Below, piece after piece: positions 48,128 to 64,000 of a stretch of DNA of 64,000 nt. The notes under the pieces are model-generated. The model was not told the origin of the DNA and did not search any database. It was given only the letters and a program-made list of their open reading frames with translations. Location: assembly GCF_009932335.1 (NCBI RefSeq), contig NZ_BLJF01000001.1:2108001-2172000 (forward strand), written 5' to 3'. The stretch's first letter is position 1. Each line of letters begins with the position of its first letter. This DNA comes from Pseudomonas asiatica (GTDB taxonomy: Bacteria > Pseudomonadota > Gammaproteobacteria > Pseudomonadales > Pseudomonadaceae). Both the position numbers and the translations under genes were made by a program.

Positions 48128-49786
48128 TCAATGATCGACCGCACCGCTGGCACCAAGGCCGGTCTGGCCCCTTACGAACTGGTCGGCGAACGCCGCCCTT
48201 TCTGCCTTGGCTCGCGCAGTCCGGTCTAGCCGGGAAACGCCATACGCCACCGCAAACGCCAGCGGCATGGAGAACAGCGCAGGCTGGGTATAAGGGAACA
48301 GCGGCTCGGGAAAGTGCAACACATCCACCCACACGAGCTTGGAAAACACCACGAAGCCCATGGCGCTGACCAACCCCACGTAGCCACCGGCCAACGCGCC
48401 GCGCGTGGTCAACCCCGACCAGAACATCGACAGGAACAGCACCGGGAAGTTGGCCGAAGCGGCGATGCCAAAGGCCAGCGCGACCATGAAGGCCACGTTG
48501 ATGTTTTCGAACACGATGCCCAGGGCTATCGCCACCAGGCCAAGGCCCAGGGTCGCCAGCTTGGTCACCCGCAGCTCCTGGGCCTCGCTGGCCGCGCCTT
48601 TCATGATCACCCGCGCATACAGGTCATGGGCGATGGCGGACGCCCCGGCCAGGGCCAGGCCTGACACCACGGCCAGGATGGTGGCGAAGGTCACGGCAGA
48701 CAAAAAGCCCAGCAGCAGGTTGCCGCCTACAGCCTGGGCCAGGTGCATGACCACCATGTTGCCCCCGCCCACCAGCTTGCCACCCACCTGCCCGCCTTCG
48801 AAGAACTGCGGCTGCTGGCTGACGATCACGATCGACGCCAGGCCCAGCAGGAAAATGACATTGAAGAAGTAGCCGATGAACCCGGTGGCATAGAGCACCG
48901 ACTTGCGTGCCTCCCGGGCATCGCTGACGGTGAAGAAGCGCATCAGGATATGCGGCAGCCCGGCGGTGCCGAACACCAGCCCCAGGCTCAGCGACAGCGC
49001 TGTCAATGGGTCAGCCAGCAGGCTGCCGGGCGCCAGCAGGCGCTCGCCCAGGGCATGGGTGTGCATGGCCTTGCTGACCAGGGTGTCATAGCTAAAGTCG
49101 AATTCGCGCATCGCCAGGAACAGCACCACGGAGCCGCCCACCAGCAGCAGGAATGCCTTGATGATCTGCACCCAGGTGGTCGCCACCATGCCGCCGAAGG
49201 TCACATACAGCATCATCAGCGCACCGACGATCACCAAGGCGATGTGATAGTCCAGGCCGAACAGCAGCCTGATCAACTGCCCGGCCCCGACCATCTGCGC
49301 CACCAGGTAGAAACACACCACGGTCAGCGAACCGATGGCGGCCATGGTGCGCACCTTGCCCTGGTCGAGGCGGTACGAAGTGATGTCAGCGAAGGTGAAG
49401 CGGCCCAGGTTGCGCAGCCGCTCGGTCATCAACAGCAGCAACACCGGCCAGCCCGCGAAGAAGGCAATGAGGTAGATGTAGCCGTCCATGCCGGAGGTGT
49501 AGATGAGCGCGGTGATCCCCAACAGCGTCGAGGCGGACATGTAGTCACCGGCCAGCGCCAGGCCATTCTGCCAGCCCAGGATGCCGCCACCGGCACTGTA
49601 GAAGTCCGCCGTCGAGCGGGTGCGCCGCGCTGCCCACCAGGTGATGCACAGGGTGAACAGCACGAACACCATGAACATGCCTATCGCATGCAGGTTGAGC
49701 GGCTGACGCTGGCCCGCGCCGAGCGCAGGCGAAGCCAACAGCAGGCCGGAGTGCAGCAACAAAGCCAGAGGCAGTAGTTTCTTCAT
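48128..49786 (-). CDS. Sodium:solute symporter (SSS family, ActP-like)
   Basis: 552 residues from MKKLLPLALLLHSGLLLASP; an in-frame extension upstream lies in the DUF485 gene. About 13-14 TM helices with signal-like first helix; ActP landmarks include SAGGGILGWQNGLALAGDYM, then SASTLLGITALIYTSGMDGY and FADITSYRLDQGKVRT. Imports acetate-like monocarboxylates with Na+. Its ATG overlaps the DUF485 stop (ATGA), as with yjcH-actP in E. coli. Last gene of the sigma-54-associated operon. Confidence 0.92.
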   Translation of the reverse strand: MKKLLPLALLLHSGLLLASPALGAGQRQPLNLHAIGMFMVFVLFTLCITWWAARRTRSTADFYSAGGGILGWQNGLALAGDYMSASTLLGITALIYTSGMDGYIYLIAFFAGWPVLLLLMTERLRNLGRFTFADITSYRLDQGKVRTMAAIGSLTVVCFYLVAQMVGAGQLIRLLFGLDYHIALVIVGALMMLYVTFGGMVATTWVQIIKAFLLLVGGSVVLFLAMREFDFSYDTLVSKAMHTHALGERLLAPGSLLADPLTALSLSLGLVFGTAGLPHILMRFFTVSDAREARKSVLYATGFIGYFFNVIFLLGLASIVIVSQQPQFFEGGQVGGKLVGGGNMVVMHLAQAVGGNLLLGFLSAVTFATILAVVSGLALAGASAIAHDLYARVIMKGAASEAQELRVTKLATLGLGLVAIALGIVFENINVAFMVALAFGIAASANFPVLFLSMFWSGLTTRGALAGGYVGLVSAMGFVVFSKLVWVDVLHFPEPLFPYTQPALFSMPLAFAVAYGVSRLDRTARAKAERAAFADQFVRGQTGLGASGAVDH

Positions 49787-50106
49787 GCGCCCCACTCCTC
49801 TTCCAGCCCGGCGACCAGCGTCTGCGTCAGGCGATCGAATTCGCCATTGGCCCGGTACACATAGAACGCCGACAGCGCACAGAAGAACACGAACAGGAAA
49901 GCGCCGGCCGCGACGCCGAAGGTCATGTTCGACCCCTCGACCAGGCGCCTGGCGATCAGCTCGGGCCAGAACGATACCAATGCGATGTAGCCATAGAACA
50001 AGGCCAGGATCAGCACGAACAGGCTCAGGGTAAAACGGTTTCTGCGCGTCACCAGTTGCTGGAACCGGGCACTGGCGCGAACGCGCGCGTATAACAGGCT
50101 GGACAT
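49783..50106 (-). CDS. DUF485 membrane protein (YjcH-like)
   Basis: 107 residues with two TM helices (FTLSLFVLILALFYGYIALV and GAFLFVFFCALSAFYVYRAN), the standard DUF485 layout, and a soluble acidic tail. It is always found with ActP-type symporters and is thought to be a subunit. Translationally coupled to the symporter gene; a Crc/Hfq-type AACAACAA lies 21 bp before its start. Confidence 0.92.
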   Translation of the reverse strand: MSSLLYARVRASARFQQLVTRRNRFTLSLFVLILALFYGYIALVSFWPELIARRLVEGSNMTFGVAAGAFLFVFFCALSAFYVYRANGEFDRLTQTLVAGLEEEWGA

Positions 50107-50127
50107 GGGACACCTCGCTCAATGTAC

Positions 50128-50135
50128 TTGTTGTT
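50128..50135 (-). promoter_or_regulatory. Crc/Hfq-type AAnAAnAA motif before DUF485-symporter genes
   Basis: AACAACAA on the minus strand, 21 bp upstream of the DUF485 start codon, in the 56-bp gap after the acyl-CoA synthetase gene. Confidence 0.55.
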
Positions 50136-50162
50136 ATGGGGTGTGCAGCTGTTGCAGCTCGA

Positions 50163-51815
50163 TCAATGCTCGGCGTCGGCGGTCTGCGCCTCCTGTTGCC
50201 GGGCCCACTCGCGCAGGACGAACTTCTGGATCTTGCCGGTGGCGGTCTTGGGCAGTTCCGTGAGCGACACATGCCGCGGCGCCTTGAAGTGCGCCAGGCG
50301 TTCACGGCACCAGCGGATCAGGTCGGCCTCCGTAACCGTGGCCAGCGCATCAGCGCGCAAGGTGACGAACGCATGGGGTGTCTCACCCCAGCGCGAGTCC
50401 GGGCGCGCCACCACCGCCGCCTCAACCACCTCTGAGTGCTGGTAGAGCACTTCCTCGATTTCCAGCGAACTGATGTTCTCGCCACCGGAGATGATGATGT
50501 CCTTGGCCCGGTCCTTGATTTCCACGTAACCGTCCGGGTGCAGCACGGCCAGGTCGCCCGTGTGCAGCCAGCCATTGGCCAATGCGGCCCGGGTGGCCTC
50601 TGGGTTGTGCAGGTAGCCTTTCATCACGGTGTTGCCGCGCACCACCAGCTCGCCAAGGGTAAGGCCATCGGCTGGAACCGGGCGGCCGGTATCGGTATCC
50701 AGCACCGTGGCCTCCTCGAGCATCGGGTGGGCGACACCCTGGCGGCTCATGAACTGCGCCCGGGCCTCAAGCGGCAACTCGTCGACCCCCGGCTGCCACA
50801 GGCACAATGTGCTGGGGCCATAGCTTTCGGTCATGCCATAGGCATGGGTGATGTTGAAGCCACGCGCCTCCATCGCCGCAATAACCGCACTGGGCGGGGC
50901 AGCACCGCCAGTGATCACCGATACCGGCACCGGAGGGGCACTGGCATGCTCGGCGTGGATCAGCATCGACATCACCACCGGGGCGGCGCTCAGGTGAGTC
51001 ACGGCATGCTCGGCGATGGCGGCGTTGATCGCATCAGGCTGGACCTTGCGCAGACACACGTGGGTGCCACCGGACAACGTCACCGCCCAGGTATGGCTCC
51101 AGCCGTTGCAGTGGAACATCGGCAAGGTCCACAGGTAGACGCTGCGCGGCCCCAACTGGAAGATCAGCGCCCCAGCGCAGGCGTTTAGGTAGGCGCCGCG
51201 GTGATGCAACACCACGCCCTTGGGGTCCCCCGTGGTGCCGGAGGTGTAGTTGATGGCGATCGACTGCCATTCGTTCTGTGGCGCACTCAAGGGTCGCGCG
51301 GGGTCGCCCTGGGCCAGGAACGCTTCGTAGTCCAGGTCGTGGGCCAGGTCGGCGCGCTCGGCCTGATCATCGTCGATGCCCACCAGCAAGGGCGGCGCAT
51401 CGAGCATGGCCAGCGCCTGACTGGCCACGGCACCGAACTCGCGGTCGCAGATCAATACCTTGGCCGCGCAGTGCCGCAAGATGAAGGCGATGCTGCGTGC
51501 CTCGAGCCGAATGTTGATGCATACCAGCACCGCCCCGGCACCGGGCACGCCATAGTGGGCTTCGAGCATTTCAGGGATGTTCGGGGCCAGTATCGCCACC
51601 CGTTCGCCCGGTTGCACACCGACCCGCTCCAGGGCACTGGCCAGAGCACGGCTGCGCTCGTGCAACTGAAGATAGTTGTAACGCCGCCTACCATAGACCA
51701 CCGCATCTCGCTGCGGATATACCTGTGCGGCCCGCTTGAGAAACGACAGCGGCGACAGCGGCACATGGTTGGCTTCGTTGGGGGCAAGCTCGTGATCGAG
51801 GGTTGGAACCATCAT
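50163..51815 (-). CDS. AMP-forming acyl-CoA synthetase
   Basis: 550 residues from the ATG at 51815 (MMVPTLDHELAPNEANHVPL). ANL-superfamily motifs: AINYTSGTTGDPKGVVLHHR (P-loop-like A3), YGMTESYG (A5), TGDLAVLHPDGYVEIKDRAK (A7/A8) and the catalytic lysine near PKTATGKIQKFVLREWA. Activates a carboxylic acid to its CoA thioester, feeding the acyl-CoA dehydrogenase in the same operon. Start overlaps the stop of a 15-codon mini-reading frame with a strong ribosome-binding site. Confidence 0.92.
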   Translation of the reverse strand: MMVPTLDHELAPNEANHVPLSPLSFLKRAAQVYPQRDAVVYGRRRYNYLQLHERSRALASALERVGVQPGERVAILAPNIPEMLEAHYGVPGAGAVLVCINIRLEARSIAFILRHCAAKVLICDREFGAVASQALAMLDAPPLLVGIDDDQAERADLAHDLDYEAFLAQGDPARPLSAPQNEWQSIAINYTSGTTGDPKGVVLHHRGAYLNACAGALIFQLGPRSVYLWTLPMFHCNGWSHTWAVTLSGGTHVCLRKVQPDAINAAIAEHAVTHLSAAPVVMSMLIHAEHASAPPVPVSVITGGAAPPSAVIAAMEARGFNITHAYGMTESYGPSTLCLWQPGVDELPLEARAQFMSRQGVAHPMLEEATVLDTDTGRPVPADGLTLGELVVRGNTVMKGYLHNPEATRAALANGWLHTGDLAVLHPDGYVEIKDRAKDIIISGGENISSLEIEEVLYQHSEVVEAAVVARPDSRWGETPHAFVTLRADALATVTEADLIRWCRERLAHFKAPRHVSLTELPKTATGKIQKFVLREWARQQEAQTADAEH

Positions 51816-51859
51816 GGCAGACACCTCATCGACACTTTGCTCAGGTTTTGCACGCACAT
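51812..51859 (-). CDS. 15-codon leader mini-gene coupled to the acyl-CoA synthetase
   Basis: Reads MCVQNLSKVSMRCLP, then TGA, which overlaps the synthetase ATG. AGGAGG is 5 bp before its ATG, whereas the synthetase itself has only a weaker GAGGTG. Ribosomes would terminate exactly at the synthetase start, giving translational coupling. A-rich Crc/Hfq-type sequence lies immediately upstream. Could be a leader regulating the synthetase, or simply a chance overlap. Confidence 0.45.
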   Translation of the reverse strand: MCVQNLSKVSMRCLP

Positions 51860-51871
51860 ACCTACCTCCTG

Positions 51872-51885
51872 TTCTTGTTATTATT
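51872..51885 (-). promoter_or_regulatory. Crc/Hfq-type A-rich motifs before the acyl-CoA synthetase
   Basis: On the minus strand AATAATAACAAGAA holds three overlapping AAnAAnAA matches (AATAATAA, AATAACAA, AACAAGAA) ending 1 bp before the AGGAGG of the mini-gene. Confidence 0.6.
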
Positions 51886-51898
51886 GCGCCAGGGCGCG

Positions 51899-52666
51899 TT
51901 ACAGGCTGCTGCACAGATGGCCGCCATCGACCACGATCTCGGCGCCGCTCATCGCCCGCCCAGCATCGCTGGCGAGCAGCAGCAAGGCGCCGTCCAGGTC
52001 CGACGGCACGCTGAAGCGTCGGCTGGGGATACGCGAACGCAACTTGTCACCGGCCTCGCTGGCCAGGAAGGCCTCGTTCAAATCAGTCATCACGTAGCCG
52101 GGCGCCAGGGCGTTCACCCGGATGCCATGGCGCGCCAACTCCAGCGCCATGGCGCGGGTCAGGTGGGCCAGGCCGGCCTTGGCCGCCAGGTAAGGGCCTA
52201 CGGCACCGGCCACACGGCAGGCGAGGATCGAGGTGACATTAATCAGGCTGCCCCCCTTCCCCGCCGCCACCATGCGCCGGGCGCTTTCCTGGGCCACGGC
52301 CCAGGCGCCCTTGAGGTTGGTGTCGAGCACGTGGTCCCAGGTTTGATCATCGCAGGCCAGCAAAGGCTGGCTGTCGCTCACCCCCGCATTGTTGACCAGG
52401 ACATCCAGCGGGCCGGCGGCATCGAGCACCCGGCAGATGTCCTCACGGCTGGTCACATCGAGGGCAAAGGCCTGCGCCCGCCCTCCAGCCACCTCGATGG
52501 CCTCCACCAACGCCCGCAGCGGCGCCTGGCGCCTGGCGGTCACCACCACCTCGGCGCCTGCAGCGGCCAGGGTCATGGCGAAGTGACGGCCCAGGCCGCT
52601 GGAGGCCCCGGTCACCAGGGCGCGGCGCCCGTCAAGGGCGAACAGTCGGACAAGGTTCGGCTGCAT
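51899..52666 (-). CDS. Short-chain dehydrogenase/reductase
   Basis: 255 residues, classical SDR. NAD(P)-binding TGASSGLGRHFAMTLAAAGA, NNAG, catalytic Ser in INVTSILACRV and YLAAK (Tyr/Lys); C-terminal DGGHLCSSL. Likely a 3-hydroxyacyl-CoA dehydrogenase-type or ketoreductase step beside the acyl-CoA dehydrogenase, whose stop codon overlaps its start by one base. Confidence 0.92.
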   Translation of the reverse strand: MQPNLVRLFALDGRRALVTGASSGLGRHFAMTLAAAGAEVVVTARRQAPLRALVEAIEVAGGRAQAFALDVTSREDICRVLDAAGPLDVLVNNAGVSDSQPLLACDDQTWDHVLDTNLKGAWAVAQESARRMVAAGKGGSLINVTSILACRVAGAVGPYLAAKAGLAHLTRAMALELARHGIRVNALAPGYVMTDLNEAFLASEAGDKLRSRIPSRRFSVPSDLDGALLLLASDAGRAMSGAEIVVDGGHLCSSL

Positions 52667-53838
52667 CAGTGGGCCCCCAGGCGCTGGTCGAGCAGCTTCT
52701 TCGCCAGGCTCATGCGGTGCACTTCGCTCGGACCGTCATAGATGCGGAACGGGCGAATGTCGCGGAAGATCCGCTCCACCACGGTGTCCCCGGTCACCCC
52801 GCGGCCACCCAATACCTGGACGCAACGATCGACCACCCGCCACAGCGCCTCGGCGCTGATCACCTTGGCCATGCTCGAATCGACATTGGCACGCCGGCCC
52901 TGGTCGAGCACCCAGGCGCAGTGCCAGACCGCCAAGCGCACCACGTGCAGGTCCATCATGTTGTCGGCGAGCATGAAGCCCACGCCCTGGTGCTCGCCCA
53001 GCGGCTTGCCGAAGGCGTCACGGGTGCGCGCATAGTCGCAGGCGATGTCGTGGGCGCGGCGCGCGGCACCGAGCCAGCGCATGCAATGAGTCAAGCGTGC
53101 GGGCGCCAGGCGCACCTGGGCATAACGGAAGCCCTTGCCGATCTCGCCGAGGACATCGCTCGCCGGGATACGCAGGTTGTCGAAACGCAGCTGCCCGTGA
53201 CCACCGGTAAAACAGCCGTCCAGCGAGTCCAGCTGACGTTCATGGATGATGCCGTCGCGCTTCATGTCGGTCAGGAACATGGTCGCGGTGCCATCCTCCA
53301 TGCGCGCCATGATAATGCCGAAGTCCGCGCCTTCGGCCCCGGTGATCAGCCACTTGCGGCCATTGATCAGATAGTCGTCGCCATCGCGGGTGGCAGTGGT
53401 ACGCAGCATCGACGGATCCGAACCGGAGCCCGGAGCAGGCTCGGTCATGGCGAAGCACGAACGGGCATGGCCCTGGACCAGCGGGCGCAACCAGCGGTCC
53501 TTCTGCGCCTCGGTGGCGACCACGTCCATCAGGTGGATATTGCCTTCGTCCGGCGCATGGATATTCAGCGCTACCGGGCCCAGCGGCGAGTAACCGGCCT
53601 CTTCGAAAACGATCGCCTTGGCCACATGGCTCAGCTCCAGGCCGCCCATTTCGCGGCTGGCGTGAGGCGTCAGCAAGCCGGCGGCGCGGGCGCGGGCCAC
53701 CAGGTCCTGGCGCAGGGCGTCGCTGGGGCCATGGCTGTCCTGGCGGGGGTCGTTCTCGAACGGGATGACCTGTTCGGCAATGAAGTCTCGGGTCTTGGCC
53801 TGCAAGGCGAGCAGTTCGTCCGGGAGAGTGAAGTTCAT
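52666..53838 (-). CDS. Acyl-CoA dehydrogenase
   Basis: 390 residues, full length. FAD/substrate motif ARSCFAMTEPAPGSGSDPSM, VLGGRGVTGDTVVERIFRDI and a C-terminal Arg-rich finger GPSEVHRMSLAKKLL. The N-terminal part resembles the ACAD11/isovaleryl-type branch that often sits with APH-like kinases. It introduces a double bond alpha-beta to the thioester; may act on 4-hydroxyacyl-CoA after phosphorylation by the neighbouring kinase, as in levulinate-type pathways (inference). Confidence 0.92.
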   Translation of the reverse strand: MNFTLPDELLALQAKTRDFIAEQVIPFENDPRQDSHGPSDALRQDLVARARAAGLLTPHASREMGGLELSHVAKAIVFEEAGYSPLGPVALNIHAPDEGNIHLMDVVATEAQKDRWLRPLVQGHARSCFAMTEPAPGSGSDPSMLRTTATRDGDDYLINGRKWLITGAEGADFGIIMARMEDGTATMFLTDMKRDGIIHERQLDSLDGCFTGGHGQLRFDNLRIPASDVLGEIGKGFRYAQVRLAPARLTHCMRWLGAARRAHDIACDYARTRDAFGKPLGEHQGVGFMLADNMMDLHVVRLAVWHCAWVLDQGRRANVDSSMAKVISAEALWRVVDRCVQVLGGRGVTGDTVVERIFRDIRPFRIYDGPSEVHRMSLAKKLLDQRLGAH

Positions 53839-53891
53839 GGCTGTCCTTGTGTGTTCTTGTCTATCGGAGGAATGGGGTGGTCGATGCAGTT

Positions 53892-54248
53892 TCAGGGCAA
53901 GGCCTTGGGGTTGCTGATCGCCAATCGGGCAACGGTGATCTGGCGCAATGTCTCGACCAGGGTGCGCCGGGTTTGCGGGGCGTCATGGCTGCCCTGGCGA
54001 ATGGCGCGAGCCAGTTGGCGGCGCAGGTCGGGCAATGTCGACGGCGCGTCATCGACCAAGGCGACCAGACGCGCCTGCTCCTGATCCTCGGCCTGAGCAC
54101 CCAGGCGGCTTTCGCGGGCCGCAATGGCCATGGCGTTGGCGATCATCAAGGCCGGGTAACGCAACTCGCCGGGCAGCGCTGGCAACAGCTGCTCCAGAAG
54201 CGTCGCGCGGGCGATCTCGAGCAATTGGTGGGCGTTGGGTTGGGTCAT
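53892..54248 (-). CDS. DUF6285 protein
   Basis: 118 residues, starting MTQPNAHQLLEIARATLLEQ; mostly helical with no membrane segment. Proteins of this kind (DUF6285) regularly separate an APH-like kinase gene and an acyl-CoA dehydrogenase gene, as here, and may be a subunit of the kinase. Overlaps the kinase gene by 4 bp. No catalytic motif is visible. Confidence 0.82.
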   Translation of the reverse strand: MTQPNAHQLLEIARATLLEQLLPALPGELRYPALMIANAMAIAARESRLGAQAEDQEQARLVALVDDAPSTLPDLRRQLARAIRQGSHDAPQTRRTLVETLRQITVARLAISNPKALP

Positions 54249-55303
54249 GGCGCTTCGGCTCCAGTCATGTGCAGGATGTCGAGTTCGAGCTCCGGCAACA
54301 GCCGGGCTGTCAGTGCCAACTCGAGCGACGGTTCTTCACCGGACAGATGGCGCTGCCCTTGCTGCAAGGCAATGACTGCCCAGCGCAGGGTGGCCATGAC
54401 CTGCCAGTAGTGCAGCTGACTGCGTTCGATGCACAGCGAAGACACCTCGTGATAACCACGCAGAAAATCCTCCAGCTGGCCAATGCCGCCGGCTTCGAGG
54501 TCTGGACGGGTAAAACGCCAGCAGCGGGCGGTGAACCAGCCGAGGTCCTCGCAAGGATCTCCCCAGCTGGTGAACTCCCAGTCGAGCACGGCCTCCAGCC
54601 CTTCTTCGCTGGCCAGGTAGTTGCCGGTGCGGTAGTCACGGTGCAACAAGCACAGGGTGCTGCTGCGCGGCGCATGCAGCTCGCACCAGCGCAGGCCCCA
54701 TTCCAGCACCGGATAGGCATCGGCGAGGGTGTCGAGGTAGCGGCGGTAGGCGTCGATGGTCGCCAGGGCCGGCGAGCTGTCCGGAACGGACAGGAAGCCC
54801 AGCGTGGCGCACGGCGGGCGGACCTGATGCAGACGCGCCAGGTTGGCGCCAAGCTGCGCCGCCAGTTGCGCCCGGCCCTGAGGACCGGCGCCGGTGCTGA
54901 GCGCGCGGCCGGTAGCGCTACCCGGCACATACTCCATCACGAAGAACACCCGCCCATGCACGCGCACATCGCGGCACAGCCAGAGCGGGCGTGGCACTTT
55001 CACGCCGGCCTGGTAAACCACCTGCAGCACGGCGAACTCCTGTGCACGGTCAAGGCTGGCGGGTAGCGCTGAAAGCGCATCGCTGCGCAGTACCCAACGC
55101 CGGACACCAGCCCACGGGCCGCCTTCGATCAGCAGGTCCAGCAGCCAGTTTTCCTGGATGGCACCGCCGCTCAGGCGCTTGCGCGCCTGGATGACCACCC
55201 GCGTTGCCGAGGCCTGCTCTCGGATGAACTCGGCCAGGCGGTGATCGTCAGTCATGGCCGCGAACGTATCGCTGGCCGGGGAAATCGTTGGTGAACTGCT
55301 CAT
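54245..55303 (-). CDS. APH-like phosphotransferase (hydroxyacyl-CoA kinase type)
   Basis: 352 residues from MSSSPTISPASDTFAAMTDD; MTDDHRLAEF, 16 codons later, is also possible. Catalytic loop LLHRDYRTGNYL (HxDxxxxN) and metal motif VLDWEFTSWGDPCEDLGW. The family includes LvaA-like kinases that phosphorylate 4-hydroxyacyl-CoA before dehydration, which agrees with the acyl-CoA dehydrogenase and DUF6285 partner. First gene of the operon, with a sigma-54 promoter 50 bp upstream. Confidence 0.88.
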   Translation of the reverse strand: MSSSPTISPASDTFAAMTDDHRLAEFIREQASATRVVIQARKRLSGGAIQENWLLDLLIEGGPWAGVRRWVLRSDALSALPASLDRAQEFAVLQVVYQAGVKVPRPLWLCRDVRVHGRVFFVMEYVPGSATGRALSTGAGPQGRAQLAAQLGANLARLHQVRPPCATLGFLSVPDSSPALATIDAYRRYLDTLADAYPVLEWGLRWCELHAPRSSTLCLLHRDYRTGNYLASEEGLEAVLDWEFTSWGDPCEDLGWFTARCWRFTRPDLEAGGIGQLEDFLRGYHEVSSLCIERSQLHYWQVMATLRWAVIALQQGQRHLSGEEPSLELALTARLLPELELDILHMTGAEAP

Positions 55304-55350
55304 GGGTCTGTAGGCCCTGCCTTTGGTTTCTGGGTTGGCACAAGCCCAAG

Positions 55351-55366
55351 AGCAAGGCCTGGGCCA
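55351..55366 (-). promoter_or_regulatory. Sigma-54 (-24/-12) promoter of the APH-DUF6285-ACAD operon
   Basis: On the minus strand TGGCCCAGGCCTTGCT. Compared with TGGCAC-N5-TTGCW it has one substitution in the -24 box and a full -12 box at exact spacing. It lies about 50 bp before the kinase start and 140 bp from the divergent sigma-54 activator gene. Confidence 0.7.
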
Positions 55367-55444
55367 ACTCTTCAAAAGTCAGCCACAGGCCGCATACAGC
55401 CTGGGTTCTGACGCCTCACCGCCGAGCGAAAGTCAGGCTGCTCG

Positions 55445-55494
55445 TTGCATATTTGCAAGGTATTGATTCAATATCGAAACATTTCAAATATGAA
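55445..55494. promoter_or_regulatory. Cluster of dyads, probable enhancer sites of the sigma-54 activator
   Basis: Three inverted repeats: TTGCATATTTGCAA (55445-55458, perfect 5-bp arms), TATTGATTCAATA (55461-55473, perfect) and TTCAAATATGAA (55483-55494). All are in AT-rich DNA about 80-140 bp upstream of the sigma-54 promoter and just before the activator gene, the right distance for upstream activating sequences and for autoregulation. Confidence 0.5.
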
Positions 55495-55505
55495 TAGGCC
55501 CCGTG

Positions 55506-57458
<1,953 letters not shown>

Positions 57459-58018
57459 ATGAAAGCCCCAATCCCATGTTCAACCCATGACGTCTGGTTG
57501 GACAGTCTCAAGGCCCGATACCGTCTAATCATCCGCCAACTGACTGGCTCGACGTACATCGCCGGGTTGCTAGCGATTTTGTTGTGGGGGCGCTCAACCT
57601 GTTTAGTTACCTGAGATACTCATTCTGCGAGCGCTTGCCCTCTATCAGATCCGGCGACTATGCGCGGTGTACTGTATCGTCCGGCATTCTTGCTCAGTCG
57701 CCTGAGGACCATGCTGATGCAGTCGGAGCAGTCGGAGTAGGACAGTATGGCGTCCGGAGGTGCGTTTTCGCGATGTGCATATTCAGCCGGTCTGGACGCG
57801 ACTGACCGCTTTCGACCCAAAGCTGCCTGTGGAGAGCGGCAGCAATCGGCCAACTACGGACATTCAGCTGAACAGTAGTCCCGCCACCAGTTTTTTAGAC
57901 TTGGACATCCTGCACTCTTCAAATGCTGGATCCTCATACTTTAAATGGGTTGGAATCTTCTGAGCACGGAGGATTCAGGCTACAGCGATAGAGAGGCCGG
58001 AGACCGCTCAAATGGCTG
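57459..58018. other. 560-bp gene-free junction between core genes and mobile module
   Basis: No reading with family resemblance or a good ribosome-binding site. The first part has sequence typical of a decayed edge. A 56-bp repeat-like segment (57797-57852) is listed separately. Base composition is lower in GC after about 57850, marking entry into the recombinase module. Confidence 0.6.
57797..57852 (-). repeat. Dispersed repeat-like segment, left copy
   Basis: On the minus strand its core GGCAGCTTTGGGTCGAAAGC is closely similar to GGCAGCTATGGGTCGATAAC in the segment at 62475-62530 on the plus strand, and both begin with GCCGATTGC; about 39 of 56 positions agree. The two copies are inverted and bracket the recombinase-ParB module. 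Similar TTTGGGTCGA-containing segments are familiar to me from intergenic Pseudomonas DNA. Confidence 0.45.
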
Positions 58019-58372
58019 TCAGTGAGCGCTGCCAGGACCCAGGCAAACATCGATCATTTCCGCGACGTCAAGCAAACGCTCGCGCAAAGCGGGAAGCCAG
58101 ACCACTGCTACGGACGAGTTCCGCTGCGCCAACTCAAGCACCGCCTGAAGGGCATGTTCGGAATGCCGCATTAATTCAATCAAATGAAGGCCACTCGGAC
58201 CATGGCTGCCCGCCAGCCAATGCTTAGCCGTACGTTCACTGGCATCGGTCCAATGGCGCAGCGTCTTGATTGCGCGATGTGACGTGCCTAATTCGGTGCG
58301 CAAGGCAGCAGCTAGGGCACCGGCGTAAGTTTGGGCGCAGATTGGAAATGAATTACCCATTTTAGTGATCAT
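58019..58372 (-). CDS. Small HTH-like protein divergent from the recombinase
   Basis: 117 residues from MITKMGNSFPICAQTYAGAL, preceded by GAGGAG; longer in-frame starts lack a ribosome-binding site. Residues about 18-60 (LAAALRTELGTSHRAIKTLR, then DASERTAKHWLAG) look like an Xre/Cro-type helix-turn-helix. The tail is helical and ends in VAEMIDVCLGPG. Divergent from the serine recombinase gene, so a likely repressor or control protein of the module. No named family recognised. Confidence 0.75.
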   Translation of the reverse strand: MITKMGNSFPICAQTYAGALAAALRTELGTSHRAIKTLRHWTDASERTAKHWLAGSHGPSGLHLIELMRHSEHALQAVLELAQRNSSVAVVWLPALRERLLDVAEMIDVCLGPGSAH

Positions 58373-58494
58373 CTTTCCGTATCTCCTCTTTATATTCGTG
58401 AGTAGCGCATCTGATGTAGGCCGGTAGGTGTGGTGCGGTCTACGGCTTGGCATGGGTGTAGACCCCAAGTCGCTAAGGGGGCATCGATCTACAA

Positions 58495-60048
58495 ATGAGA
58501 CGAGCACATCTATCCACGACCGAAGGCAGCAATAGAGCTGCTGCCTATGTCCGCATGTCGACGGAGCACCAGCAGTACTCCACTGAAAATCAGCTGGATG
58601 CCATTCGCGTTTATGCGGCAGCACATGAGCTGGAGATCGTCCGGGTATACACCGATGCGGGTAAAAGTGGCTTGAGCCTGGATGGTCGGGAAGCTCTCCA
58701 ACAGCTACTTCTAGATGTCGACGCTGGTCAGTCCGAGTTCTCTGTAGTTTTGGTCTATGACGTAAGTCGCTGGGGGCGCTTTCAGGACCCTGATGTGAGC
58801 GCCAGCTACGAAGTTCGATGTCGGCAGGCGGGTGTCAGGGTCGAATATTGCGCCGAACAGTTCGTTAACGATGGCTCACCGGTATCCAGCATCATCAAGA
58901 GTGTTAAACGCATGATGGCTGGTGAGTACAGTCGTGAGCTGTCCGTCAAGGTGTTTGCGGGGCAGTCGCGCTTGATCCAGCTGGGATACCGACAAGGTGG
59001 CCCGGCTGGATATGGATTGCGTCGTCAACTTATAGATCAGACAGGGCAGCCTAAAGCAATCTTGGATCGGGGAGAGTACAAAAGCCTTCAGACGGATCGG
59101 GTGATTCTCACGCCTGGTCCTGAGTCCGAACAACAGGTCGTTCAAGACATTTACCAGGCATTTGTCAGGGAAGGTCGAACCGAAGCTGAAATTGCAACTC
59201 AACTGAATCGGCGTGGACTGCTTACAGACTTCCAGCGACCTTGGTCACGGGGAGTGGTGCATCAGGTCCTGATCAACGAAAAGTACATCGGTAACAATGT
59301 TTGGAATCGCACGTCTGGCAAGCTGAAACAGCCCCGAACATCCAATCCAGTTGATCAGTTGGTGCGGTCCGACGGTGCCTTCTCCTCTGTGGTCGACCAC
59401 GCTTTGTTTCTCGCGGCGCAGGCCATCATCCGAGCGCGGTCACGGCACTGGACTGACGAGCAAATGCTGGCGACGCTGAAACAACTATTTGCGGAGCGAG
59501 GTTGTCTGTCTGGGTTGATCATTGATGAGCAAGAGGATTGCCCCTCCAGCAGTTGTTATCGCCAGCGCTTTGGTAGTCTGCTACGCAGCTACAGCCTAAT
59601 TGGCTATTCCCCCGGACGGGACTACAGCTTTCTGGAGGCCAATCGTCGGCTGCGAGAGCTGTATCCGCACATCTTGGTCGACACACAGGAGCGCATTCGT
59701 CTTGTCGGTGGACACATCTCGGTCGATCCCCAGACCCAGCTGGTTTGGGTTAATGATGAGTTCTCGATTTCGGTGGTGCTTTGCCGCTGTCAATGTTCAG
59801 AGTCAGTGCGCAGGCGTTGGCAGCTACGCTTCGATTTCGGCTTGTTACCTGACCTTACTGTCGCTGTTCGCATGCTCCCAGGTGAGCAGGAGGTGCTTGA
59901 TTACTACCTCTTTCCCATGATCGATTTGGCGGCACCTCACCTGCGTCTGGGAGATACTAATCCGCGCGAATTGGAACTCTACCGGTTCAACAGCTTGGAT
60001 ATCCTAGCGGCCCTGAGTCGACGTATACCCCTGGGGAGCGCTGCGTAA
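58495..60048 (+). CDS. Large serine recombinase
   Basis: 517 residues. Catalytic domain: AAAYVRMSTEHQQYSTENQL with nucleophile Ser22, VYDVSRWGRFQD with the conserved Arg, then the long helix VKRMMAGEYSRELSVKVFAG. A recombinase DNA-binding domain follows (GYRQGGPAGYGLRRQLIDQ). The C-terminal half lacks an obvious four-Cys zinc ribbon and has instead a region around ERGCLSGLIIDEQEDCPSSS. Stop codon overlaps the next ATG in TAATG. Unlike phage integrases it is co-translated with two ParB-like proteins. Less GC-rich than core genes, so transferred DNA. Confidence 0.9.
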   Translation: MRRAHLSTTEGSNRAAAYVRMSTEHQQYSTENQLDAIRVYAAAHELEIVRVYTDAGKSGLSLDGREALQQLLLDVDAGQSEFSVVLVYDVSRWGRFQDPDVSASYEVRCRQAGVRVEYCAEQFVNDGSPVSSIIKSVKRMMAGEYSRELSVKVFAGQSRLIQLGYRQGGPAGYGLRRQLIDQTGQPKAILDRGEYKSLQTDRVILTPGPESEQQVVQDIYQAFVREGRTEAEIATQLNRRGLLTDFQRPWSRGVVHQVLINEKYIGNNVWNRTSGKLKQPRTSNPVDQLVRSDGAFSSVVDHALFLAAQAIIRARSRHWTDEQMLATLKQLFAERGCLSGLIIDEQEDCPSSSCYRQRFGSLLRSYSLIGYSPGRDYSFLEANRRLRELYPHILVDTQERIRLVGGHISVDPQTQLVWVNDEFSISVVLCRCQCSESVRRRWQLRFDFGLLPDLTVAVRMLPGEQEVLDYYLFPMIDLAAPHLRLGDTNPRELELYRFNSLDILAALSRRIPLGSAA

Positions 60049-60941
60049 TGGCCACATCGGAAGAGCATCTTGCACTTCATGTGGCGCAGGCGGCGCCTAT
60101 TGCGCAGATCCCACTCGCGGATATTCGCGTGCTCAATCCGCGTAGTCGCAATCAACAAGTGTTTGCACGCCTGGTGGAAAACATTGCGAGTCTGGGGTTG
60201 AAACGACCGATCACGGTGACCCGTAACGGTTCGAGTTTCGACCTGATCTGTGGGCAGGGGCGCTTCGAAGCCTTCAAGGTCCTGGGGGAGTCGGCCATTC
60301 CAGCGGTCGTGGTGACGGCGGCAGAGGCAGACCGCTATCTCATCAGCCTGGTAGAGAATCTGGCGCGACGTAAGCATTCGAACCGCGACTTGCTGATGGC
60401 GATCAACGTACTGCACGAGCGTGGTTACTCCATCAGGCAGATTGCCCAGAAAACCTGCTTGGACCGTGCCTATGTTGGCGGCATTTTGATCTTGTTGCGG
60501 CAGGGAGAGGAGCGCCTGATCGCTGCCGTCGAAAAGGGCTGGCTACCGATTAAAGTCGCGATCCATGTGGCACGGTCCGACGATGCCCAGGTCCAGGCCG
60601 CCATGGTCGAAGCCTATGAAAGTGGATTGTTAAAAGGAGATGAACTCATCAAGGTGCGCCGCCTGATCGACCGAAGACGCGTTCTTGGCAAGGGCTATGG
60701 TAGGCAGCATGGAGGCGAGCGCATGACCACTCCTCGCCAGTTGCTGACTGCCTATCAGACTGAGGTGCGCCGTCAGCGCCTGATGGTAAAGAAGGCGGAC
60801 ATCGGTGAGCAAAGATTGCTCTTCGTCGTGACTGCATTGCGTCGGTTGTTGGCCGATGAATTTTTCCGGTCAATGTTACGCAGTGAAGGTATTGATGATA
60901 TGCCGCAGGTATTGGCCGAGCGAATTCAGGGGGACGCATGA
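60048..60941 (+). CDS. ParB/RepB-like protein 1
   Basis: 297 residues. N-terminal ParB/Srx fold: IPLADIRVLNPRSRNQQVFA, box I-like FDLICGQGRFEAFKVLGES and box II-like LVENLARRKHSNRDLL. A ParB helix-turn-helix (YSIRQIAQKTCLDRAYVGGI) and RepB-type C-terminal region follow. Canonical ParB uses these boxes for CTP binding and parS spreading. No ParA gene is nearby, so ordinary plasmid partition is unlikely. Coupled by overlap to both the recombinase (TAATG) and ParB-like 2 (ATGA). Confidence 0.88.
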   Translation: MATSEEHLALHVAQAAPIAQIPLADIRVLNPRSRNQQVFARLVENIASLGLKRPITVTRNGSSFDLICGQGRFEAFKVLGESAIPAVVVTAAEADRYLISLVENLARRKHSNRDLLMAINVLHERGYSIRQIAQKTCLDRAYVGGILILLRQGEERLIAAVEKGWLPIKVAIHVARSDDAQVQAAMVEAYESGLLKGDELIKVRRLIDRRRVLGKGYGRQHGGERMTTPRQLLTAYQTEVRRQRLMVKKADIGEQRLLFVVTALRRLLADEFFRSMLRSEGIDDMPQVLAERIQGDA

Positions 60942-61843
60942 CTGTCGTCAAGCGTGCCTTTGCCCCCGAGTTGATTACCGTCCGCTTACCGCTGATCTTG
61001 CCCTCTCGCCAAGTCACCCACGACATGCTGACGTCCGTCAAATTCGCAGCGATTTTAGCCTCCATCCGTGAATTGGGCGTGGTCGAGCCGCTCGCGGTTT
61101 ATCCCGAGCCGGTTCACGGGACGGGAGGGGAGCCTCGTTATCTACTGTTGGATGGTCATTTGCGGCTAGCTGCGCTCGCACAGTTGGGGGCGGAAGACAC
61201 GTTGTGCCTGTTGGCGACAGATGACGAAGGTTTTACCTACAACCGGCAGGTCAACCGACTTACCCCGATTCAAGAGCACAAGATGATTCTGGAGGCGATA
61301 CGCAAAGGAACGACTGCCGAGCGGATTGCCGAAGTCTTGAGCGTCAACGTCGGACGCATCCGCGAGCGCCAGCATTTGTTGCGGGGGATTGCGCCGGAAG
61401 TCGCTGAGATGCTGAAAACGCGAATGGTTAGTCAGGCGGTCTTTCGCGTGTTGCGTAAGATGAAGCCGATGCGCCAGGTAGAACTAGTCGAGATGATGAT
61501 TTCCGCCAACTGCTTTACTGGTCGCTACGCCGAAATGGTATTAGCCGCAACGCGTCCTGAACAGCTGGTTGAGGCAAAGAAAGTCAGTGAGGGCGTGACT
61601 GCTGAAGACATTGCACGCATGGAGCGAGAGATGGAAAAACTCTACCACGATTACCGGTTGGTCGAGGACACCCTCGGCGAAACCATGCTGGTACTCGTGG
61701 TTGCCAAGGGCTATGTGTCTCGCATGCTGCGCAATCAGACTATCGCAGCTTACCTGGAGCGTTTCGAGCCTGACCTAGTGCGGGAGCTGGCGGGGGTTGT
61801 GGAGGCGGTCACCGCAGATGCTCGTAGTCTGGAGCGTGAATAG
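60938..61843 (+). CDS. ParB/RepB-like protein 2
   Basis: 301 residues. ParB-like N-terminus with divergent boxes (RYLLLDGHLRLAALAQLGAE in place of GERR, YNRQVNRLTPIQEHKMILEA in place of ENxxR) and an HTH (GTTAERIAEVLSVNVGRIRE). The C-terminal RepB-type region includes LGETMLVLVVAKGYVSRMLR. The two ParB-like proteins may form a heteromer in which only the first keeps the nucleotide-binding box. Third gene of the tightly overlapped recombinase module. Confidence 0.87.
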   Translation: MTVVKRAFAPELITVRLPLILPSRQVTHDMLTSVKFAAILASIRELGVVEPLAVYPEPVHGTGGEPRYLLLDGHLRLAALAQLGAEDTLCLLATDDEGFTYNRQVNRLTPIQEHKMILEAIRKGTTAERIAEVLSVNVGRIRERQHLLRGIAPEVAEMLKTRMVSQAVFRVLRKMKPMRQVELVEMMISANCFTGRYAEMVLAATRPEQLVEAKKVSEGVTAEDIARMEREMEKLYHDYRLVEDTLGETMLVLVVAKGYVSRMLRNQTIAAYLERFEPDLVRELAGVVEAVTADARSLERE

Positions 61844-61872
61844 ACCTACCTGCTGTGCTTAGTGGGAGGACA

Positions 61873-62547
61873 TCATTCGTTTCGGGGGCAGATCGTCAGT
61901 GCTATGTTGGCGAGGGCATGGGCTTTGGCTGGAATCGCGGCTTCGTCCCGTGCAGAGGTGGCAATCAGTGGGGCATTGAGACCAAGGCTAGCAATGGCAT
62001 CAGCTTGTCGCGTTTCGTCGCGAAATTGCAGGGTTGCGCCGTCCTATTGACGCCAAGGTTCAGCAACGTCAAGTTGCCTAGCATTGGGATGCTCTCATGC
62101 CGTTCACGAATCAGGAGCTGCCAGGGCGTCAATGTGCCGCAAGAGCGCACAATCACTTCGATATCCGAGTCGTCGCTGTCGGCTGCCACGCTGCCATCTT
62201 TCTGCGTCCAGCGGGACGTGCCAACTACGCGGCAAAATGTGGTCTATATCAAGCGCTGATAGGTCTGGTGTTTCCGGTTCTTCGCTTTTAACGGATAGCC
62301 GTGAGCCGCCCTCGAGTTCCGTTAGCAGCGAACAGGTTTTTGCGGTATCCAGCCGGTTTGGGTACAGCGGTGCACTGATGCAAGCGTTACGGAATTCAAG
62401 GATCAGCGTCAGCTGTAGTCGAACGTGATGAAGGATTGCGCTGGGCCGAAGGCAGCGTTCGTGACTAGCAGCTTTTGCCGATTGCGGCACTTTGCGAAGG
62501 GCAGCTATGGGTCGATAACGGCCCTTCACGATCATGGATATCGTCAT
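61873..62547 (-). pseudogene. Decayed DUF262/DUF1524 (GmrSD-like) HNH protein, C-terminal part
   Basis: Read on the minus strand in three successive frames it gives CSLLTELEGGSRLSVKSEEP, LSALDIDHILPRSWHVP (the D-H-x-x-P HNH motif of DUF1524), then ESIPMLGNLTLLNLGVNRTA and KRDKLMPLLAL. It ends AAIPAKAHALANIALTICPR before a stop at 61873-61875. These pieces follow each other in the order found in intact DUF1524 proteins but are broken by at least two frameshifts, and the large N-terminal DUF262 part is absent. Likely a dead type IV restriction or related defence gene. Confidence 0.65.
62475..62530 (+). repeat. Dispersed repeat-like segment, right copy
   Basis: Inverted relative to 57797-57852; shares GCCGATTGC and the GGCAGCT-TGGGTCGA core. 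Lies inside the start of the decayed HNH reading, just left of the integrase core-like site. Confidence 0.45.
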
Positions 62548-62565
62548 GCCGACCTCTTCGTTATA

Positions 62566-62599
62566 TTAGGTCTGATAAGCACCCGGTTATCCGCACCTA
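62566..62599. repeat. Tyrosine-recombinase core-site-like dyad (right copy)
   Basis: Arm TTAGGTCTGATAA (62566-62578) is identical to the left-hand site at 11665-11677. The other half, TTATCCGCACCTA (62587-62599), shares TTATCCG with the left site's right arm. The spacer is 8 bp (7 bp at the left site). It lies about 40 bp before the integrase start, the same relative place as on the left. Confidence 0.6.
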
Positions 62600-62640
62600 T
62601 TGCACCGTTGAGCGAGAAGACATTGACAGAACCGATAGCG

Positions 62641-63732
62641 ATGCCCTCCTCCTCGCCTTTAGTGTTGGCGGAACTGGCCGCCAGCACCCGTGCCGCCGCC
62701 GACGCATTCATCGCCGCCGGTACCGCGGCCAACACCGTGCGCAGCTATCAGAGCGCCCTCGCCTATTGGTCCGCCTGGCTGCAACTGCGCTACCGGCGCG
62801 CACTCGGTGATGGCCCCTTGCCGCCGGAGGTGGCGGTGCAGTTCATTGTCGACCACCTTGCCCGACCCGACGATGCAGGCTGCTGGAGCCACCTGCTGCC
62901 AGCGGACCTCGATGCTGCGCTGGTCGCTGCCGGCGTCAAAGGAAAACCAGGCCCGTTGGCGTTCAGCACGGTCAGCCACCGCCTGGCCGTCCTGGCCAAG
63001 TGGCATCGCCTGCAGCAGTGGGAAAACCCGGCAGAGAGTCAGGTCGTGAAAACCCTGTTGCGTGAAGCCCGTAAGGCCCAGGCTCGCCACGGCGTCTCTG
63101 TGCGCAAGAAAACCGCCGTGGTGTTGGAACCGCTGCAGGCGATGCTTGCTACCTGTACCGATGGTATTCGCGGCCTCCGCGACCGTGCTCTGTTGCTGTT
63201 GGCATGGAGTGGCGGCGGACGCAGGCGCTCAGAAGTGATTGGCCTGCAGGTTCAGGACCTCCGTCGCTTGGACGCAGACACTTGGCTCTACGCGTTGGGG
63301 GCGACGAAGACTGACACCGGTGGCGAGCGGCGGGAAAAGCCCCTGCAAGGGCCTGCGGCCCACGCACTGCAGGCGTGGCTGGAGGCGGCACCCGCGCAGA
63401 CCGGACCACTGTTTCGTCGGCTGTACAGAGGCGGCCGGGTCAGTAGCACCGGACTATCAGGCGATCAGGTGGCGCGTATCGTCAAGCGTCGAGCGCAATT
63501 GGCCGGCCTTGAAGGGGATTGGGCAGCGCACAGCCTGCGCTCGGGCTTTGTCACTGAGGCCGGGCGTCAAGGTGTGCCACTGGGAGAGGTGATGGCGATG
63601 ACCGAGCACCGCAGCATCACTACGGTGATGGGCTATTTCCAGGCAGGATCGCTGCTGGGCAGTCGTGCGACCAAGCTACTTGGCCAGGCCCTCACACCTC
63701 AAGCGAGTGCCAGCGCGCCCTCCGATGAATAA
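62641..63732 (+). CDS. Tyrosine recombinase/integrase (intact)
   Basis: 363 residues from MPSSSPLVLAELAASTRAAA; a TTG at 62608 could extend it. N-terminal SAM-like domain (AANTVRSYQSALAYWSAWLQ) is followed by the catalytic domain. Active-site residues: Arg in SGGGRRRSEVIGLQVQDLRR (about 193), Lys in ALGATKTDTGG, HxxR in AHSLRSGFVTEAGR (about 297), His in TEHRS and the nucleophile Tyr in MGYFQAGS (about 331). The set is complete. A truncated homologue is at 11761. It would act on the core-like dyad just upstream. Confidence 0.92.
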   Translation: MPSSSPLVLAELAASTRAAADAFIAAGTAANTVRSYQSALAYWSAWLQLRYRRALGDGPLPPEVAVQFIVDHLARPDDAGCWSHLLPADLDAALVAAGVKGKPGPLAFSTVSHRLAVLAKWHRLQQWENPAESQVVKTLLREARKAQARHGVSVRKKTAVVLEPLQAMLATCTDGIRGLRDRALLLLAWSGGGRRRSEVIGLQVQDLRRLDADTWLYALGATKTDTGGERREKPLQGPAAHALQAWLEAAPAQTGPLFRRLYRGGRVSSTGLSGDQVARIVKRRAQLAGLEGDWAAHSLRSGFVTEAGRQGVPLGEVMAMTEHRSITTVMGYFQAGSLLGSRATKLLGQALTPQASASAPSDE

Positions 63733-63777
63733 TTGCCTCGATCAGTGACAACCGTCATCCCGCACAATGCACTGAAC

Positions 63778-63999
63778 TCAAAATACAAAGGCGCTCGCCA
63801 GGATTTCGAAACCGAACAAGAACTTTGGCTGGGCGTCGGTATGAACTGAAACGGTGCCGGCAGCATGGGAAATCCGCAGCAACGCATCGGTGCGCCCGTG
63901 GCTCATGAGCTTGCGCAGCACCGGCAGTCCGGCAGGCAAGTCGATGATGATTTCATGGACCCGTCCTCGGATGGTCTCACCGAGGTAGTCGCTAAGCGA
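63778..63999 (-). CDS. C-terminal fragment of an unrecognised gene entering from the right
   Basis: The last 73 codons of a minus-strand reading open to the window edge: SLSDYLGETIRGRVHEIIID then LPVLRKLMSHGRTDALLRIS and a final EILASAFVF before TGA. No internal stop and a protein-like composition support a real gene, but the family is not recognisable from this piece. Convergent with the integrase, 45 bp away. Confidence 0.55.
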   Translation of the reverse strand, partial: SLSDYLGETIRGRVHEIIIDLPAGLPVLRKLMSHGRTDALLRISHAAGTVSVHTDAQPKFLFGFEILASAFVF

Positions 64000-64000
64000 T

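Follow-up and report, generated by a model that had tools for sequence, protein, structure and literature searches.

The locus at 58019–61843 raises the question of what two ParB-like proteins do when they are encoded together with a large serine recombinase. The window, i.e., the whole stretch of 64,000 nucleotides of Pseudomonas asiatica DNA that was analyzed, has the following genes at and beside this locus.

58019..58372, minus strand: divergent small gene, putative regulator of 117 residues (from the annotation of an identical plasmid copy; phrog_23106)
58495..60048, plus strand: large serine recombinase of 517 residues (Resolvase domain 15–156, Recombinase domain 211–314)
60048..60941, plus strand: ParB-like 1 of 297 residues (ParB_N and RepB, PF07506; motifs NPRxR, CGQGR, and ENxARR)
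60938..61843, plus strand: ParB-like 2 of 301 residues (RepB, PF07506, and an N-terminal ParB fold that has diverged; motifs DGHxR and N102...R107)
61965..62544, minus strand: two-frame remnant similar to the 3′ portion of a GmrSD-type restriction gene (PF07510 below the cut-off)

The coordinates and reading frames of the genes, and the TAATG and ATGA overlaps at the two junctions, were confirmed in the window sequence. The plasmid copy is 100% identical to positions 56500–64000 of the window, and its public annotation gives the same four genes with the same starts. The first-pass annotation described the recombinase and ParB genes as fused, but the open reading frames merely overlap, as in translational coupling, and form no fusion. 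The overlap is −4 or −1 between the recombinase and ParB-like 1 in 90 of 98 distinct loci and between ParB-like 1 and ParB-like 2 in 83 of them, where the in-frame start closest to the upstream stop was chosen by a script, a choice that biases the counts toward small overlaps. The high frequency of these two overlaps across the 98 loci suggests that the coupling is not a matter of chance.

The divergent gene had been taken for an HTH gene, a name that is not given to it by any family in Pfam or NCBIfam at E values up to 1. A PADLOC search with the gene gave no match, and its sole match is the uncharacterized phage family phrog_23106. The gene is present in 61 of the 79 loci in which the recombinase runs forward with over 1.2 kb of sequence upstream, and 15 columns are conserved at 95% or more in the alignment of 72 sequences. 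In many loci, it belongs to the conserved set. The remnant at 61965–62544 scores 17.8 and 21.9 bits with PF07510 against a cut-off of 23. This stretch is common to the sibling units L040 and L041 up to approximately 62520 and lies mostly within the element described below; the remnant is possibly decayed cargo.

The order of recombinase, ParB-like 1, and ParB-like 2 is found in 69 of 76 species-level loci with enough upstream sequence when ParB-like 2 is used as the bait, and the three-gene order is conserved across genomes as the first-pass annotation had proposed to check. ParB-like 2 occurs in 26 of 398 Pseudomonas genomes, and ParB-like 1 and the recombinase adjoin it in all 26. The recombinase occurs in 28 of the 398; 26 have the pair, one (G135) is on a contig that stops within ParB-like 1, and one (G189) is a remnant. 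The recombinase is broken in two genomes (G118 and G200), both of which have the ParB pair. No intact solo recombinase of this family was found among the best matches of the 28 genomes (up to three candidates scored in each). A ParA-like open reading frame was detected with two ParA queries in only one of 130 fetched stretches, which are 3.9–24.9 kb long (99 of them at least 10 kb) and partly overlap. The adjacency, the lack of an intact solo recombinase in the 28 genomes, and the near absence of ParA in the stretches agree with the earlier suggestion that the ParB-like proteins go with the recombinase and not with ParA. The gene set is widespread: it occurs across Pseudomonadota and, judging from metagenome-assembled genomes, also in Verrucomicrobiota and Planctomycetota.

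The recombinase has a Resolvase catalytic domain (PF00239, E = 6.7e-22) and a Recombinase domain (PF07508, E = 2.9e-18) in Pfam, and by these domains it is assigned to the large serine recombinase class. Tyr18, Arg20, Ser22, Asp89, and Arg92 are invariant in 38 aligned sequences; the conserved Ser, Arg, and Asp of the Resolvase domain are presumably the catalytic residues. The zinc ribbon typical of serine integrases has no Pfam match up to an E value of 1, and the C-terminal region is conserved without a Pfam match. Not every large serine recombinase carries a recognizable zinc ribbon. Assignment to the SCC cassette recombinases (Ccr) fails in NCBIfam, with scores of 67.5 for CcrB and 33.1 for CcrC (cut-off 900 each) and 17.8 for CcrA (cut-off 700).

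The models of both ParB-like proteins keep the ParB fold. ParB-like 2, described in the first-pass annotation as having lost the box I/II-like motifs, has not lost the ParB domain; its profile aligns to that of ParB-like 1 with 96.6% probability, and its model matches ParB/Noc structures. ParB-like 1, for which box I/II-like motifs had been noted, has NPRxR and ENxARR, but GQGR stands in place of the canonical GERR, with the Glu and the first Arg replaced. In 43 sequences, Gln70 is conserved at 90% or more and Gly71 is invariant. CTP binding and hydrolysis are therefore not to be assumed for ParB-like 1. The profile of ParB-like 1 is similar to KorB (E = 8.6e-8), and KorB is among the fold matches of both proteins. 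The NCBIfam partition_RepB model gives 23.1 bits against a cut-off of 201.5. When 8000 candidates were scored, 1558 of them counted as relatives of ParB-like 2 at E = 0.001. Pairwise comparison of the protein distance matrices shows correlation (r = 0.93, 0.90, and 0.97; 81 sequences), which is explicable by co-inheritance alone. Regarding parS-like sites, the 13 divergent regions listed hold no perfect palindrome whose arms are 8 long, and the window element holds none whose arms are 9 long; degenerate sites may occur.

The boundaries around the genes are given below.

57797..57853, plus strand: left end, one arm of a 57-nt imperfect inverted repeat, with the predicted crossover core TCGA at 57812–57815
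62474..62530, plus strand: right end, the second arm, with the predicted core TCGA at 62512–62515

The arms are 70% complementary and are listed first among the inverted repeats of the region. The ends coincide with the positions where similarity to units in other flanks is lost, and terminal inverted repeats lie on both sides of the mobile unit in the window group. The genes are, as judged from these boundaries, the core of a discrete mobile element of approximately 4.7 kb at about 57812–62515. The joined element ends are palindromic at 25 of 35 positions, and none of 1000 control joins is equally good. The predicted attB palindrome is weak in the window (equaled by 27 of 1000 controls), not significant in L041 (96 of 1000), and clear only in L040 (0 of 1000). 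The sequence recognized at both window junctions is the TCGA core alone, and no classical target duplication is recognized.

In the comparison of occupied and empty sites proposed in the first-pass annotation for mapping the ends, a Sphingobium site without the unit is found, but an exact empty site for the window insertion is not found in 398 genomes (two candidates scored in each). In that search, 14 of the 398 match some part of the site, one of which is the G189 remnant. For L040, 0 of 144 genomes join both flanks, and two match one flank.

Copies in other flanks should be noted. Similarity of L040 and L041 to the window is confined to 57800–62517 (95.4% identity) and 57809–62523 (91.9%), respectively, and their flanks differ (matches longer than 150 bp considered). 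In G189 (locus L181), the window site is occupied by a truncated, diverged copy in the opposite orientation, which ends at the identical base. Its element part has 89.3–89.4% identity with the window element and is closer to L122, L041, and L031 (91%), and its flanks are 97.3% and 94.8% identical. Such an opposite-orientation copy at one site is expected if a serine integrase acts on sites that are nearly palindromic and have TCGA as their core; the orientation of serine integrases depends on the central dinucleotide, according to PMC3783163 (refs 43 and 44 therein). In principle, the G189 copy may have arisen by inversion in place; the identity gap that speaks against this, between these L181 relatives and the window element, is 2 points. 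On plasmids, Agrobacterium pAt1D1460 and pAtC58 have only a 3.9-kb unit in common (96.9% identity), and each pAtC58 flank is also found elsewhere without the unit. The Agrobacterium and Sphingobium plasmid units sit between short direct cores; in Sphingobium, comparison of L142 with L133 gives the site without the unit and the core CGGCCGTG. In Rhodobacterales, the left end alone is defined. The insertion sites are clade-specific or short. In a flank-repeat scan of 82 loci, only eight direct and seven inverted pairs reached the threshold, as did 7 and 10, respectively, of 325 comparisons run as controls; four of the seven inverted pairs are copies of the window element.

Other targets were considered and rejected. 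For a dispersed repeat, the motif CGACCCAAAGCNGNC occurs three times in its own genome, where the reversed control also gives three matches, and the long palindromic attB pattern occurs 0 times with up to three mismatches; CGACCCAAAGCNGNC with two mismatches is no commoner in the window than expected by chance. The control count and the absent pattern suggest that the element ends are not a common genomic repeat. For a tRNA gene, the Rhodobacterales left end has TGGCGGAG in 24 of 27 loci (L099 left out), but the random controls are high: when 560 stretches of 3.2 kb are drawn at random from these loci, true ends included, 123 contain the 8-mer, and its reverse complement occurs in 4 of 28 of the same upstream windows. 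TGGCGGAG is similar to the 3′ terminus of a tRNA-Ser gene found in L105, a locus without the left copy, and any tRNA is found in only 7 of 49 loci scanned. With regard to defense islands, PADLOC gave 67 families among neighboring open reading frames (148 of 249 candidates scanned); of the 25 listed, 20 match three proteins, mostly with type I methyltransferase models. Pfam gave 91 families, none in more than three proteins among the 25 listed. These raw counts make no case for enrichment.

We consider it probable that the locus is a compact integrative element, in which the serine recombinase uses the ParB-like pair as accessory or directionality factors. In this view, the approximately 4.7-kb element would be circularized by the recombinase and linked to a short chromosomal site that is nearly palindromic; the crossover would lie in the TCGA core. 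The operon-mates ParB-like 1 and 2 would most likely be DNA-binding accessory factors of recombination, which may bind at or near the element ends to aid synapsis or to decide between integration and excision, and the small protein encoded divergently is probably a repressor of the operon. The linkage, the discrete ends, the unrelated flanks, the opposite-orientation diverged copies at one site in two genomes, the Sphingobium unit-free site, and the ParB folds are read from sequence; the recombination steps, the accessory role, and the regulator role are inferred. For attP × attB recombination by the recombinase, the loci appear to preserve only footprints of events.

Alternatively, the recombinase may act alone, and the pair may retain the excised circle, for example by a partition-like or clustering activity with host factors. 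The RepB domain of plasmid partition proteins in both ParB-like proteins fits this explanation, and PMC5704250 puts forward a protein related to ParB as maintaining an integrative element of a streptococcal kind. It is unlikely, since 129 of the 130 stretches of limited length lack a ParA-like open reading frame with the two queries, the four genes of the unit include no replication gene, and so small an element would hardly need partition. The similarities to KorB argue for a different role, in which the ParB-like proteins regulate transcription of the operon and cargo and take no direct part in recombination. A separate candidate regulator is already present divergently, the 4- or 1-base coupling to the recombinase suggests matched amounts, and the 13 divergent regions listed have no perfect inverted repeat (arms of 8, gap of up to 6), although imperfect operators are possible; we regard this role as improbable as well.

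The unit may also not be self-mobile but be a module repeatedly shuffled with defense or toxin-antitoxin neighbors by homologous recombination at short repeats. Agrobacterium mosaic neighborhoods, in which AbiE, Fic, and VapC genes meet at one short sequence, and repeats of approximately 80 nt with 81% identity that surround the Sphingobium unit are consistent with such shuffling. Sharp ends in unrelated Pseudomonas flanks and an inverted, diverged copy at one site are both hard to obtain in that way, and the explanation is very unlikely. An integron-like cassette array, prompted by the Agrobacterium mosaics, is only a rival.

Within the integrative element with ParB-like accessory factors, a more specific version can be held only tentatively: a heteromeric DNA clamp of ParB-like 1 and 2 may load at the element ends and license or direct the recombinase. 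The subunit that has Gln and Gly in its GERR motif, ParB-like 1, would then bind nucleotide but hydrolyze it slowly or not at all. If true, this would be a recombination directionality system derived from a segregation clamp. To reverse direction, serine integrases generally depend on a small protein unrelated to them, and recombinase switching is a standing question. With the widespread minimal four-gene element, it can be tested directly whether site-specific recombination is open to control by ParB-type clamps. ParB relatives alongside the recombinase suggest a helper of a new type for this familiar class of recombination enzymes. They further suggest that many proteins now named plasmid partition proteins may be parts of mobile elements, the recombinase neighborhood having been counted in the surveyed loci only.

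The closest known systems share parts of this arrangement. Large serine recombinases (phage integrases, TnpX/TndX, and CcrAB) have the Resolvase and Recombinase domains in common with the window recombinase. Serine integrases likewise use near-palindromic sites with a short common core, and orientation freedom is expected with a palindromic core; in contrast, the window recombinase has no zinc-ribbon match, its own conserved C-terminal region, and two ParB-like partners. It differs from CcrAB in the CcrB score given above. Insertion sequences and small transposons are also few-kb units with terminal inverted repeats as in the window group, whereas the present units have a serine recombinase, two accessory-like proteins, and, in other clades, direct cores. 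ParABS and RepABC share the ParB N-terminal fold and RepB (PF07506) with the window pair, but the window-type loci have no nearby ParA in 129 of 130 stretches, partition_RepB is below the cut-off, and GQGR replaces GERR.

In the openly accessible text of PMC5704250, PMC7466150, PMC6429310, and PMC6563490, no integration module with a serine recombinase and a ParB-domain protein appears, while that of PMC3146451 describes one. In that account, the integration module of Dehalococcoides ssrA genomic islands has six genes, including a CcrB-like serine recombinase, a second small serine recombinase, and one ParBc-domain protein of 210 residues, and has ssrA as a fixed target. The window unit has one recombinase and two ParB/RepB proteins of approximately 300 residues, and its ends map to sequences other than ssrA; no tmRNA was found in the window or in 49 loci scanned. 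The authors of PMC3146451 suggest that other genes of the module control how active the integrase/excisionase is or alter the element once it is excised.

Four genes span positions 58019-61843 of the window, which is part of a 5.97-Mb genome: a small divergent gene, a serine recombinase gene, and the genes of two ParB-like proteins. The three larger products are listed here with a broken gene piece found beyond them.
Serine recombinase, 517 residues, Resolvase and Recombinase domains
ParB-like 1, 297 residues, ParB_N and RepB domains
ParB-like 2, 301 residues, RepB domain and a diverged ParB N-terminus
61965-62544 (-), a broken piece similar to the 3' portion of a GmrSD-type restriction gene, below the Pfam cut-off

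The stop/start overlaps read in the first-pass annotation are present, TAATG between the recombinase and ParB-like 1 and ATGA between ParB-like 1 and ParB-like 2. Among 98 distinct loci, a coupling of 4 or 1 bases is found at the former junction in 90 and at the latter in 83, with the nearest start codon chosen at each junction. The catalytic-type residues of the recombinase are invariant in 38 sequences. The GmrSD-like piece sits in a stretch common to sibling units (a unit being the recombinase with its ParB-like pair, wherever found), and is possibly decayed cargo.

The three-gene order, which had been noticed in this one sequence, is conserved across genomes. With ParB-like 2 as bait, a one-genome-per-species collection gave 94 loci encoding a relative, of which the best 80 were retained. 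The upstream side was assessed in the 76 having at least 3.2 kb upstream of ParB-like 2. ParB-like 1 adjoins ParB-like 2 in 73 of the 76, and an intact recombinase and ParB-like 1 are both beside it in 69. In the seven exceptions, the recombinase is fragmented (loci L090, L091, L100, and L109), ParB-like 2 is broken with its upstream partners intact (L070), fragments are found (L060), or ParB-like 2 is alone (L058). At L109, approximately 2.4 kb of other DNA (~5838-8224) divides the recombinase gene. Pseudomonas, Rhodobacterales, Bradyrhizobium, and Aggregatibacter are among the sources of these loci, as are metagenome assemblies of Verrucomicrobia and Planctomycetes. Within Pseudomonas, ParB-like 2 was found in 26 of 398 genomes (at most five candidates scored per genome), and both partners adjoin it in 26/26 in the 1.5 kb flank viewed. 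The recombinase as bait (at most three candidates per genome) gave 28, namely the same 26 and the genomes G135, whose contig stops within ParB-like 1, and G189, where the unit is reduced to a remnant. A stop interrupts the recombinase of G118, and that of G200 is split in two. The distance matrices of the three proteins are correlated (r of 0.93, 0.90, and 0.97 for 81 sequences) vs at most 0.14 in 500 permutations; the correlation is a mark of co-inheritance and is not in itself proof that the proteins are in contact.

Judging from sequence comparison, this gene set is a mobile element. Similarity to the window runs over 57800-62517 (95.4% identity) in locus L040 and over 57809-62523 (91.9%) in locus L041, and the flanks of these units are unrelated. 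A 57-nt inverted repeat, 70% complementary, lies at both element limits, and the joined element ends form a near-palindrome (25/35 positions; controls as good, 0/1000). The joined flanks of L040 are GAGTGACCGCTATCGATACCAGTCATTC, the best-scoring form of which is 12/15 palindromic (controls as good, 0/1000). Those of the window are less clearly palindromic (10/15; 27/1000), and those of L041 are not near-palindromic (9/15; 96/1000). TCGA is the core common to both window junctions.

The strongest single fact for mobility is found in G189 (locus L181). Its left and right flanks are the same as those of the window and end at the same bases, and the ~1.5 kb between them consists of an inverted left end of the element and ~450 bp of other DNA. 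The element part, equivalent to window 57806-58876 in inverted form, abuts the right flank. Its identity with the window is about 89.3-89.4%, against 97.3% and 94.8% for the flanks. Since such similar flanks enclose a diverged and inverted element part, the most likely history is two entries at one site, in opposite orientations. A weaker explanation is that the element inverted in place and then changed at a faster rate. The element part has 91% identity with L122, L041, and L031 (the last over just 869 bp), against 89.4% with the window, and this gap, which bears on two entries vs inversion in place, is two points only. For serine integrases, orientation depends on the dinucleotide at the centre of the core, according to PMC3783163 (citing its refs 43 and 44). 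A palindromic TCGA core would leave the orientation of the element free.

The surrounding ~15 kb (window 48938-64000), containing levulinate-type catabolic genes, the element, and a tyrosine integrase gene, is 99.99% identical to the P. aeruginosa plasmids p12939-PER and pPA272; this level of identity indicates a recent exchange between chromosome and plasmid. The tyrosine integrase gene (62641-63732) lies just beyond the right end of the element, and a 156-bp part of this gene recurs at 11810-11960 with 77-79% similarity.

Other clades give a similar picture at different sites. Among Agrobacterium plasmids, pAt1D1460 has the 3.9-kb pAtC58 unit by itself (96.9% identity), and both pAtC58 flanks occur elsewhere without it. 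All eight junctions flanking this unit or its former partners consist of CCTTGA (once CCTGGA), 7 bases, and YGAACC, a pattern absent from four other stretches inspected at the outer edges of neighbouring genes. On pAt plasmids (L128 5000-12300, L135-L139), the same pattern is the meeting point of AbiE, Fic, and VapC genes; it resembles a tRNA T-arm and is likewise found at sites lacking the recombinase unit.

In Sphingobium pSPHCH01 (L142), the arsH side is joined directly to the DUF2493 side, where CAP-1 (L133) has a unit with CGGCCGTG at both ends. The repeats around this core are only 81% identical over 80 nt, so more than one event may have occurred. Across the Sphingobium plasmid loci L132, L133, L140, L142, and L143, the spot before DUF2493 has alternative occupants: ars genes, nhaA together with an SLC13 permease gene, or a recombinase unit.

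In Rhodobacterales, where the mapping covers the left end and no right end, the left-end 8-mer TGGCGGAG is upstream in 24 of 27 loci, beside several differing flanks. Its reverse complement is found in 4 of 28 upstream windows, and the 8-mer in 123 of 560 random 3.2-kb stretches taken from these loci, true ends included. Downstream genes that some of these loci have in common fit cargo.

At L045, a similar stretch lies on either side of the unit (6901-7056 and 10947-11108); on visual inspection this stretch resembles a small gene's 3' end, which would suggest that the unit supplies a replacement gene end. A 36-bp direct repeat with one mismatch surrounds the 4.7-kb unit of L054 (6678 and 11361), giving candidate attachment sites, and a 216-bp stretch is repeated on either side of the unit in L034 (5192 and 10940).

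For ParB-like 1, profile searches give Spo0J, Noc, ParB, and KorB, at a best E of 8.9e-16. For ParB-like 2 they give Noc and Spo0J, the best E being 2.6e-7. The AlphaFold model of ParB-like 1 (mean pLDDT 81.2, pTM 0.47) matches CDP-bound Spo0J (6sdk, E 2.1e-11), and that of ParB-like 2 (79.9 and 0.43) matches CTPγS-bound ParB (7bnr, E 2.6e-10). The query-normalised TM-scores are 0.20-0.47 among the matches listed, and thus support the domain folds and not their arrangements. ParB-like 1 has NPRxR, G-x-G-R, and E-N-x-A-R-R motifs, and ParB-like 2 has DGHxR. GQGR in ParB-like 1 stands in place of the GERR of canonical ParB, where the replaced residues are required for CTP handling.

The most likely working of the element as a whole is as follows. 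The recombinase would circularise the element and insert it at a short near-palindromic site, as suggested by the footprints at the ends, G189, and the sites in other clades. The ParB-like pair, made together with the recombinase, may bind the element ends and aid synapsis or set direction, a role to which linkage, coupling, and fold point. The divergent protein would control the operon. Steering of a serine recombinase by a ParB-type clamp, put forward in the first-pass annotation as CTP-gated licensing, is a bolder and less likely reading. Our literature search found no published description of a gene set comprising this recombinase and a ParB-like pair. The nearest described system is the ssrA island module of Dehalococcoides (PMC3146451), where a CcrB-like recombinase is coupled with a single ParBc protein, alongside four further genes.
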